Part shown: positions 7,716-9,150 of the stretch, in pieces | How positions within the stretch are numbered: position 1 is the first letter of the stretch | How the letters are laid out: the number at the start of each line of letters is the position of its first letter | Assembly (NCBI RefSeq): GCF_019670125.1 | Contig: NZ_AP023033.1 | Location: 248,001 to 312,000, forward strand | Length of the DNA: 64,000 nt | Direction: 5' to 3' | From: Agarivorans aestuarii | GTDB taxonomy: Bacteria > Pseudomonadota > Gammaproteobacteria > Enterobacterales > Celerinatantimonadaceae | Notes under the pieces: model-generated | Databases searched by the model: none | Seen by the model: the letters and a program-made list of their open reading frames with translations, nothing else | What the model was told of the DNA's origin: nothing | Position numbers and translations under genes: made by a program

Positions 7716-7736
7716 TGGGATGTTAGTTTGAGAAGA

Positions 7737-7760
7737 AACCGCTAATTAGCGGTTTTTTTG
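7737..7760 (+). terminator. Rho-independent terminator after yaiL
   Basis: ACCGCT-AATT-AGCGGT stem followed by seven T residues, 21 bp after the yaiL stop. Confidence 0.85.
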
Positions 7761-7836
7761 TATTTGTAAGCTTCCTCTTCTCGTTAACCATTTTGCTTGC
7801 GATGTACTTTGTGGGCTCAGGTTTTGGCTTGGCGGC

Positions 7837-8335
7837 GATGATGGTGTATTGAAAGCAGAACAGCATGCTTGAGGCTTCATTCGTTTTATTTTGAGCCAAT
7901 GCTTGGTGTTGGTTCAGGTTTCGCCTTGCCGGCGATACACTTTTCTTTGTGCGGCCAAAGAAAAGTGCACAAAAGAAAGGCCGCCCGCATTCCCTTGAAT
8001 CTTGCGTTTCTCATAAATCAACGCGCCTACGGAAACTCGCTGCGCTCAAACAGTCCTCGGCTTATTCATTGATTTACTGCGATACTCAGCGGGAATCATG
8101 GTTTATGGATTGGGCAACTTGTCGTCCACTTTTGCTGACGAGGTACTTTGTGGGTTCGGGTTTCGCCTTGGCGGCGATGTACTTTTCTTTGCTCTGCCAA
8201 AGAAAAGTACACAAAAGAAAGGCAGCCCGCATCTCCTTAGCTCCTCCGTTGCTCGCAAACAAGAGCACCTTCGGAAACTCGCTACGCTCAAACAGTCCTC
8301 GGTTTCATCTCTTGTTTACTCCGCTACTCGGCGGA
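7837..8335 (+). repeat. 499-bp tandem repeat, copy A (two diverged half-units)
   Basis: First copy of an exact-period (499 bp) tandem duplication. It holds two diverged half-units of about 240 bp. Each begins TTTCGCCTTG[GC]CGGCGAT, then a perfect palindrome (12-bp arms 7938-7949/7956-7967; 13-bp arms 8179-8191/8198-8210; 6-base loops), then ACAAAAGAAAGGC, then a foldback. The foldback stems are 7989-7994/8091-8096 and 8014-8021/8069-8076 in the first half, and 8230-8236/8333-8339 and 8258-8265/8309-8316 in the second. The stem sequences of the two halves differ but each pairs perfectly. Short open frames here are products of the repeat, not genes. Confidence 0.9.
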
Positions 8336-8834
8336 GATGATGGTGTATTGAAAGCAGAGCTGTGAGCTTGAATTTATATTAGTTTCATTTGAACCACTGC
8401 TTGGTGTTGGCTTAGGTTTCGCCTTGCCGGCGATACACTTTTCTTTGCGCGGCCAAAGAAAAGTGTACAAAAGAAAGGCCGCCCCGCATTCCCTTGAATC
8501 TTGCGTTTCTCATAAATCAACGCGCCTACGGAAACTCGCTGCGCTCAAACAGTCCTCGGCTTATTCGTTGATTTACCGCGATACTCAGCGGGAATCATGG
8601 TTTATGGATTGGGCAACTTGTCGTCCACTTTTGCTGACGAGGTACTTTGTGGGTTCGGGTTTCGCCTTGGCGGCGATGTACTTTTCTTTGCTCTGCCAAA
8701 GAAAAGTACACAAAAGAAAGGCAGCCCGCATCTCCTTAGCTCCTCCGTTGCTCGCAAACAAGGGCACCTTCGGAAACTCGCTACGCTCAAACAGTCCTCG
8801 GTTTAATCCCTTGTTTACTTCGCTACTCAGCGGA
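8336..8834 (+). repeat. 499-bp tandem repeat, copy B
   Basis: Second copy, nearly identical to copy A at an offset of 498-499 bp. Its second half-unit carries an inner stem AACAAGGG (8757-8764) pairing with CCCTTGTT (8808-8815), where copy A has AACAAGAG pairing with CTCTTGTT. The A-to-G change in one arm is matched by T-to-C in the other. The CAAAGAAAAG palindromes recur near 8436-8465 and 8678-8709. Confidence 0.9.
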
Positions 8835-8846
8835 GATGATGGTCCT

Positions 8847-8901
8847 AAAGAGCAAAGAGCAAAGAGCAAAGAGCAAAGAGCAAAGAGCAAAGAGCAAAGA
8901 G
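8847..8901 (+). repeat. Heptanucleotide microsatellite (AAAGAGC)n
   Basis: Seven perfect copies of AAAGAGC plus six bases of an eighth, at the right edge of the 499-bp tandem repeat. It is in no coding frame I believe in. Such tracts are prone to slippage. Confidence 0.95.
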
Positions 8902-8962
8902 TGGGAGTGTTAAGTTTTTTCTGTTTATCTAGCTAGCTGGGCTCTTGATCTTCCTTCCCCCT

Positions 8963-9150
8963 CATCATCGCCGAGTAGCGCAAGCGAGCTGCGGGTATAG
9001 GCAAAACCTGTTTGAGCGTAGCGAGTTGTTTTGACGCCGCAGTGAGTGAGCAACGCAGGAAGAAGATGATGCTGGGGCAGCCTTTCTTTTTCCTTAGTTT
9101 TTCTTTGGCTGTTCAAAGAAAAAGGAAGTCGCCGTCAGGGCGAAATCCGC
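8963..9150 (-). repeat. Inverted, diverged unit of the foldback repeat family
   Basis: On the minus strand this matches the plus-strand half-units: the core AACTCGCTACGCTCAAAC is conserved (complement near 9009-9026), and a palindrome with 10-bp arms lies at 9098-9107/9114-9123. Its own nested stems (8963-8969/9065-9071, 8989-8994/9037-9042, 9002-9007/9028-9033) again have sequences not shared with the other units but pair perfectly. No gene is present between 7761 and 9258. Confidence 0.75.

Follow-up and report, generated by a model that had tools for sequence, protein, structure and literature searches.

A pan-bacterial ~185-nt DNA module with a covarying pseudoknot and an invariant 19-nt loop as a candidate end of small mobile elements

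An array at positions 7919-9145 of the window, the 64,000-nt stretch of Agarivorans aestuarii DNA analysed here, consists of a single unit repeated five times, four times in direct (+) and once in inverted (-) orientation (Table 1). Each unit of ~185 nt folds into a small hairpin, then a second one that makes an H-type pseudoknot by pairing its loop with downstream sequence, and finally a long stem of several segments closed by a 19-nt loop, AACTCGCTNCGCTCAAACA. This fold, pseudoknot included, is established by covariation. Modules occur in multiple phyla in a patchy manner, assemble into tail-to-tail units and have dispersed as whole units. We give about an even chance to the reading that a non-autonomous mobile element, passing through a folded single-stranded DNA stage, has these modules as its structured ends.

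The array is flanked by convergent genes that we take to be yaiL (+, ending at ~7714) and pntB (-), the names being read from the frames rather than from a family search, and spurious open frames do run across a unit. The five units and the named stems of the original prediction are all present in the sequence. Its core and its CTTTG palindrome are both real; listed there as separate features, they prove to be parts of one unit, and beyond that first reading the loop of the palindrome pairs with a segment ahead of the long stem, forming the pseudoknot. With the strand carrying the core taken as sense, the window contains five exact cores, AACTCGCTRCGCTCAAAC, where 100 shuffles average 0.08. 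Copies 3-4 repeat copies 1-2 (ABAB) with a period of 499 nt and 97% identity over 300 nt, so these four are not independent witnesses. Pieces of the spacer between copies 4 and 5 recur in other genomes of the genus at 85-100% identity; the AAAGAGC tandem repeats in this spacer span 8843-8901, and similar spacers are present in G002 and G004.

Table 1. Features of the module array in the window (positions count from the first letter of the window).
Feature	Position	Strand	Description
Terminator-like site just past yaiL	7733..7758	+	inverted repeat (I24) and T-run; array beyond
Further copy, probable deletion remnant	7791..7891	+	unit flanks apparently joined without interior; repeat families D4, D6
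Copy 1	7919..8101	+	type 24; core 8034-8051; consists of hairpin A, hairpin B with the pseudoknot, and a long stem ending in the invariant loop
Pseudoknot part of copy 1	7938..7984	+	hairpin CACTTTTCTTTG/CAAAGAAAAGTG; TGCGGC in the loop paired to GGCCGC; AAAGAAAA-spacer-AAAAGAAA as mirror repeat
Copy 2	8161..8343	+	type 24; core 8276-8293
Copy 3	8417..8600	+	type 24; core 8533-8550; duplicate of copy 1
Copy 4	8660..8842	+	type 24; core 8775-8792; left partner of tail-to-tail pair
Spacer between tail-to-tail copies 4 and 5	8843..8958	.	116 nt; AAAGAGC tandem repeats
Copy 5	8959..9145	-	type 26; core 9010-9027 on -; right partner of tail-to-tail pair

The genome-wide core search proposed with the prediction yields 18 cores at ≤2 mismatches in the window genome (G000; one contig, 4,687,452 bases) against 2 for the reversed control, and a covariance model, R1, yields 19 matches, two of them partial. 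R1 was built from alignment A4, comprising seven cleanly aligned copies of the window genome picked for equal arm length; alignments A1-A3, which mis-register hairpin B, were excluded from model building. Since all seven seed copies lie outside the window, the window copies are independent of R1. One locus (L014/L035, G000:C1:423161-423380) carries an extra ~40-nt palindromic insertion on the left side of the long stem, and matches of 220-227 nt in G006 are alike. The right flanks of L022 and L019, and G000:C1:1792207 and 1998244, carry repeats of another family, ~130 nt long (GTTATTTTTNGAGCTAGGTGGCTGATAT ... palindrome AAGAGGAAAAATCCCTTGTTTAAACAAGGAATTTTTCCTC), with many copies per genus genome, some lying within about 1.5 kb of integron integrase genes.

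Hairpin A is composed of TCGCC/GGCGA, and hairpin B of arms such as TTTTTCTTTG/CAAAGAAAAA. Pairing between the hairpin-B loop and the segment immediately ahead of the long stem involves CGAG/CTCG, CTGCC/GGCAG or GCGGCC/GGCCGC, and in Bacteroidota CTTGAT/ATCAAG or CTTGAA/TTCAAG. RNAalifold picked this pseudoknot helix unprompted on the first alignment. Judged by eye, minimal forms in Cellulophaga and Arcicella go straight from the pseudoknot to a short hairpin that has the same loop, and one Cellulophaga copy has a mismatch in the pseudoknot.

The covariation signature claimed in the prediction is right and stronger than stated there, as the stems change two-sidedly yet stay paired, genome-wide and beyond. 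All eight helices, pseudoknot included, show two-sided changes. Across 51 pairs and 116 distinct sequences, in an alignment fitted to the nested structure and therefore inflating the figures for the nested part, 90.3% of cells are paired versus 68.3% after shuffling (0/500), two-sided change occurs in 50 of the 51 pairs, and the covariation score reaches 0.489 versus 0.146 (0/500); sliding the partners by 1-3 columns reduces paired cells to 38-46%. The pseudoknot, which lies outside the model, has 85.5% paired cells and two-sided change in all four of its pairs. Independently of any model, the core flanks pair better than 95% of shuffled flanks in 107/114 pan-bacterial hits, with weak stems (score ≤8) in 13 of the 114, and a pseudoknot of ≥4 bp is present in 94 of 124 distinct contexts versus 35.1 (maximum 47 of 200) with the loops dealt among copies.

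The hairpin-B arm is mirrored in an A-rich linker, and the two vary together: AAAGAAAA-GTGCAC-AAAAGAAA in copy 1 and AAAGAAAAA-CTAAGG-AAAAAGAAA in copy 5. A shift of the G in the arm is mirrored in the linker, with AAAAGAAA accompanying AAAGAAAA in Haemophilus and some Variovorax, and AAGAAAA accompanying AAAAGAA in Extensimonas. The A-count before the G of the arm equals the A-count after the G of the linker in 31 of 40 distinct strings, which derive from related copies and are not 40 events; permutation gives a mean of 16 and a maximum of 26 of 5000, and direct-repeat equality is found in 6/40. The corresponding correlations are 0.83 and 0.91 for the mirror versus 0.29 and 0.38 for the direct repeat. 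The test drew on 161 hits, many being one copy seen in overlapping loci, and scored only single-G arms and linkers. A cruder score gives a mixed answer, with total matches of 7.36 versus 6.60 dealt and 6.65 for the direct-repeat control, and non-A matches of 1.14, not above the 1.26 of that control. Some subtypes (those with TTAAGCTTTG stems) keep the linker and lose most of the mirror match. Step-wise mirror variation of this kind is what a triple helix would predict. A third strand would run parallel to the purine arm on the T-rich strand and antiparallel on the A-rich strand, and DNA allows both.

Folded single-stranded DNA appears to fit these data better than a working RNA. Model pairs in 107 distinct sequences comprise 4278 Watson-Crick, 125 G-U, 106 A-C and 333 other cells; in pan-bacterial stems, scored with no mismatch favoured, G-T pairs number 31 versus 47 A-C, and T-C mismatches (81) far exceed A-G (8), fixed internal loops being perhaps part of the cause. 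An excess of G-U over A-C was sought on both strands and is seen on neither. A functional RNA is expected to show a clear G-U excess on its own strand, and we read its absence as DNA folding or as a duplex-level process, which is an argument rather than a proof. Among the meanings offered by the prediction, structured RNA gains from the covarying pairing and loses from the missing G-U excess; a single-strand DNA substrate for a recombinase or transposase is the best remaining fit if the enzyme is one other than the Y1 type; and persistent stem pairing is more than a protein-binding array alone would call for.

A structured RNA, most likely from the T-rich strand and spread as a retro-element or within 3' untranslated regions, is in our judgement unlikely. 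Its U-rich loop would occupy the major groove of a U-A stem to form a telomerase-like triplex pseudoknot, and the pseudoknot and mirror repeat do have the right U-A-U triplex geometry on the T-rich strand. In telomerase-type RNA a pyrimidine loop lies in the major groove of the pseudoknot stem, and the module shares with it the H-type pseudoknot and a pyrimidine loop that can occupy the groove of an A-T/U stem. Covariation in all helices also favours an RNA, as does a slight 3'-side gene bias at loci without an overlapping frame (17 convergent and 8 divergent, by crude frame calling). The module differs from the telomerase type, however, in showing no G-U excess, even though a model-fitted alignment should favour G-U; the array has no Rfam 15 match at the gathering score, only weak sub-threshold ones, three tRNAs lying elsewhere in the window. 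Within a search of 13 genomes, the reverse transcriptase family RVT_1 is present in 4/7 genus genomes and has no match in the other 3/7, which argues that it is not needed in residence, and a resident reverse transcriptase is rejected.

The exact core occurs in at least 116 stretches of 84,980 species genomes, against ~7.5 expected by chance (our own arithmetic for 257 billion bases, two strands and 18 fixed letters). Titles among the listed matches cover Lachnospiraceae, Bacteroidota, Desulfobulbaceae, Nitrospirales, Patescibacteria, Variovorax and Haemophilus; the loop is also found, patchily, in Clostridia and Nitrospirales. Cores at ≤1 mismatch (control in parentheses) number 116 (0) in Flammeovirga, 41 (5) in Ralstonia, 39 (0) in Iodobacter, 29 (0) in Flavobacterium, 26 (1) in Clostridium and 15 (0) in Variovorax, with 1-6 in others of the 12 genomes; the 94 of Sedimenticola are unreliable against a control of 58. 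R1 independently detects 41 copies in Ralstonia, 35 in Iodobacter, 29 in Flavobacterium and 15 in Variovorax, mostly over all 185 positions, as well as relatives in Haemophilus; distant stems differ and the loop and knot are alike. Within the phylum of the window genome, 17/398 genomes contain the exact core, all 17 belonging to its class and all listed controls being zero, and R1 matches are present in 15/60 relatives, including 7/7 of the genus, with 39 matches in G006. Such a widespread but patchy occurrence is as expected of mobile DNA.

Orientation of neighbouring modules is strongly biased in six named genomes (all 132 R1 rows), with 25/25 neighbours tail to tail at ≤1 kb and 26/29 at ≤3 kb. 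These pairs are distributed over Ralstonia (13), Variovorax (7), Methylophaga (3), Haemophilus (2) and Iodobacter (1), and two more pairs among relatives outside the genus are also tail to tail. The two-ended unit is not universal: the three same-direction neighbours, 2.4-3 kb apart, belong to Iodobacter (2, against its one tail-to-tail pair) and Flavobacterium (1), whose copies are single, and genus neighbours (less G009 and G019) comprise 35 same-direction, 19 tail-to-tail and 5 head-to-head cases. Pair partners usually differ in subtype (27 with 25, 24 with 26, 20 with 18 or 19), with like-subtype partners in L078 and L189; a homotypic pair would amount to a long perfect palindrome, and the scarcity of such pairs may reflect no more than their loss.

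Seven Variovorax units are 88-93% alike over ~580 nt, with common outer ends and unlike flanks, and their outer ends, close to TTCCCGAGGCCGGG...CCCGGCCTCGGGAA, constitute terminal inverted repeats; in the genus of the window the two unit ends are related and of different types. Two G006 units (L196/L197) are 94% alike over 493 nt and unlike outside, and a third is 86-87% alike over ~362 nt. Upstream of ilvC, one unit is inverted between two genomes of one Pasteurellaceae genus, matching at 90% over 529 nt on the minus strand versus 72% over 818 nt in a plus-strand alignment that includes the flanks. Matches occur in 7 of the 30 ilvC-upstream loci read. In the Pasteurellaceae locus L232 another palindromic unit (TGCCAAATCTCCCCTACCCC...) stands in place of the module at this intergenic position, which therefore looks like a general landing site. 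Paraburkholderia plasmids (H12-H18) have, per replicon, at least 37-40 unannotated places that match 64 nt from the outer portion of the Variovorax unit, perhaps a large related family.

Comparison of module sites suggests that hotspots exchange genes, some of them defence-like. Six genus genomes have modules downstream of a gene 'X' (ending ...KKIAVGG), accompanied by differing genes: a KAP NTPase in G000, G002, G003 and G006, a 312-aa frame in G004 and a 115-aa frame in G001, the cargo lying inside a tail-to-tail pair in G006 and G001 and the array being more complex elsewhere. The KAP protein matches candidate PADLOC family PDC-S20 (1.8e-95). One G009 pair encloses candidates PDC-M22A and B (2e-155 and 1e-222), another a 105-aa DUF2971-like frame, candidate PDC-S31 (1e-15). 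Between two same-direction modules in G006 lie a ParE-like frame (3e-12), a 254-aa frame and a weak match to RelB that stays under its cut-off, and a Ralstonia pair encloses a frame that is, recognised by eye, presumably an efflux outer-membrane factor. The yaiL-pntB site holds a candidate PDC-S31 gene in G003 (9e-42) and G004 (4e-44), a frame of ≤319 codons in G001 and a 138-aa frame in G005, the compared stretch in the latter two not including both yaiL and pntB; the window genome has no cargo gene there. Cargo at this site sits between the last module and pntB, outside the pair. Among the nearest frames of pan-bacterial loci (first hit per locus, ≤1200 nt away, 100-700 aa; 148 used of 173 eligible), no Pfam family is found in more than 3/148 and any one PADLOC family in at most 2/148. 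The link to defence genes is therefore not general, and a fixed partner gene is rejected.

Empty sites were sought with the flanks of nine window-genome sites in seven genus genomes (17 locus comparisons). Against 14 module-less loci, sequence is shared on both sides only at S4 (G001, G004) and S10 (G002, G006). The S4 interiors are unlike, so no insertion point is readable. At S10 (L029 124-1724, G000), a ~1.6-kb segment is missing in G002 and G006, where the outer sequences are continuous; within it are two frames that match no family and, 41 nt short of the right junction, a single module; only one of its ends has a module. S10 is one gain-or-loss site and the best candidate for exact insertion ends.

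Units of this kind resemble MITEs, which are likewise short, non-coding and dispersed, have inverted ends and no internal transposase, and can enclose genes. The module ends differ in being ~185 nt long and folded, with pseudoknot, mirror repeat and invariant loop; here single modules and direct tandems are also common, and no target-site duplication was seen by eye at the loci inspected, where outer boundaries are not sharp. We consider it improbable that they are ordinary MITEs moved by a DDE transposase, their arms complementary through template switching rather than selection on the fold. Dispersed units with inverted ends extending outward would suit such elements, and the near-equal G-U and A-C counts fit a duplex-level process. 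Arm-to-arm copying, however, leaves unexplained both a pseudoknot between non-adjacent segments and the mirror correlation, as well as an invariant 19-nt loop in very distant bacteria, and the target-site duplication expected of them is the one not seen by eye. MITE-like units are a known kind, in which the fold, loop and knot are probably new, and a categorically new mechanism is conceivable. Text searches of open-access literature yielded no description of the module, though one under some other name may exist, subscription papers and preprints being mostly outside that text; the papers listed for a shorter string are on unrelated subjects, judged by their titles, and passages of a MITE review (PMC10969869) contain no mention of pseudoknot, Haemophilus, defence or covariation.

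It is far less probable that the modules are bidirectional terminators or insulators, each stopping transcription from outside and placed in pairs between convergent genes. The window array does lie between convergent genes past a terminator-like site, and at S4 the sequence specific to module-bearing genomes begins right after a terminator-like T-run, ~45 nt ahead of the module. The Pasteurellaceae unit, on the other hand, lies between divergent genes, which by eye we take to be ilvC and a LysR-type gene, the window copies have no T-run directly after them, and a terminator has no need for an invariant 19-nt loop common to phyla. REP/BIME elements mobilised by a Y1 (RAYT, TnpA-REP) transposase, which are likewise numerous intergenic palindromes in opposed orientations, are scarcely credible here, as REPs are several times shorter than the ~185-nt module and lack its fold and pseudoknot, and the check for a REP-type transposase proposed with the prediction came back empty, Y1_Tnp having no match by profile search in the window genome or in G001, G003, G004 and G006 (four of the six other genus genomes; G006 holds 39 R1 matches).

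Besides the Y1 transposase, rejected as mover by its absence from the window genome, several enzymes were considered. No transposase is present among the cargo frames looked up. Integron attC sites fold as single strands with shape conserved rather than sequence, and the module shares this property and the nearby gene cassettes. It differs in that the conserved part is the terminal loop and the stems vary, and an integron integrase is rejected as mover: in a search of 13 genomes the window genome has only an 84-aa fragment (G000:C1:3228584-3228799, positions 243-314 of 315, below cut-off), whereas G001-G006 have one above the family cut-off. In rolling-circle origins a hairpin presents a conserved motif. 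The module has this in common with rolling-circle and inovirus origins, and the same 19 nt occur in inovirus-type contigs, but the module unit has no rep gene.

An exact-loop scan of IMG/VR lists 80 stretches. One large set is discarded, its loop matches being coincidental coding sequence of an O-like replication gene, as checked in L278 only; a second has the hairpin and by eye resembles the Pasteurellaceae type. The third is inovirus DNA: L296, for example, encodes a Zot-like protein together with a replication initiation protein (phrog_453, 1.5e-127). The loop opens a conserved block in these contigs, and the leftward sequence differs between them; in L270, L284, L296, L298, L302 and L311 the 19 nt stand where variable sequence gives way to the conserved block, which has a CGGGGG/CCCCCG hairpin. 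The inovirus loop mostly lacks the long stem, with a short stem in only some contigs. Nine deposited Vibrio phages match the block, four matches beginning inside the loop and five to its right, and the Vibrio inovirus PQ189344 (Tubulavirales) has the loop with one mismatch, outside the annotated gene of that stretch. The block has no match in the plasmids searched. The loop is antisense to rep in 10 of the 11 contigs with a rep match (12 examined). Inovirus virion strands are usually rep-sense, in which case the virion strand reads TGTTTGAGCGNAGCGAGTT. Phage_CRI is rejected as a resident helper, being present in 7/60 genomes and 1/7 genus genomes and absent from the window genome.

Returning to the reading of the modules as ends of a non-autonomous mobile element, each repeat would be the end module of a small DNA element. 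The single-stranded DNA would fold into a locked shape of three parts: a hairpin at the end, an H-type pseudoknot braced by a triple helix, and a further, long hairpin that exposes the invariant 19-nt loop. Two tail-to-tail modules with a short spacer, sometimes with genes, would make up one unit (~475-580 nt when empty), moved by an enzyme supplied in trans, probably via a single-stranded stage. It is thus presumably DNA rather than RNA that folds, and the loop may be a host-recognised start or processing site. Either strand of a tail-to-tail unit alone would carry the TGTTTGAGCGNAGCGAGTT form close to its 3' end, where synthesis of the complementary strand could sensibly begin; such a start-site role of the loop is a guess, of fairly low probability. 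In favour of the mobile-end reading stand the covarying fold with its pseudoknot, the mirror correlation, the lack of a G-U excess, the tail-to-tail and dispersed units, the inverted unit upstream of ilvC, the S10 site, and the loop in DNA of inoviruses, which are single-stranded DNA phages. Counting against it are the absence of any mover found, the lack of a target-site duplication to the eye, the single copies in Flavobacterium and the same-direction neighbours in Iodobacter, and, in the genus, the excess of same-direction over tail-to-tail neighbours, as well as the cargo outside the pair at the yaiL-pntB site, the one-ended S10 segment and the scarcity of the long stem at the inovirus loop. 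Taken further, and only tentatively, the modules may define a class of mobile DNA with folded single-strand ends and a triplex-locked pseudoknot, whose invariant loop is read by a conserved bacterial factor (primase, RNA polymerase or equivalent) or by a shared trans-acting enzyme, so that, once transferred, a single-stranded copy could gain its complementary strand whichever its polarity; such elements would move defence and toxin-antitoxin genes between hotspots and have the loop signal in common with inoviruses.

At the least, the model allows annotators to mask spurious open frames. One fixed loop combined with freely changing stems is found patchily in distant bacteria, with up to 116 loop matches in Flammeovirga. 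If the DNA itself folds, selection would be maintaining a natural triplex pseudoknot made of DNA, and mobile genes would have their ends marked in a new way. The module further opens to testing how small cassettes, some of them for defence, may be swapped at fixed intergenic hotspots without a resident transposase.
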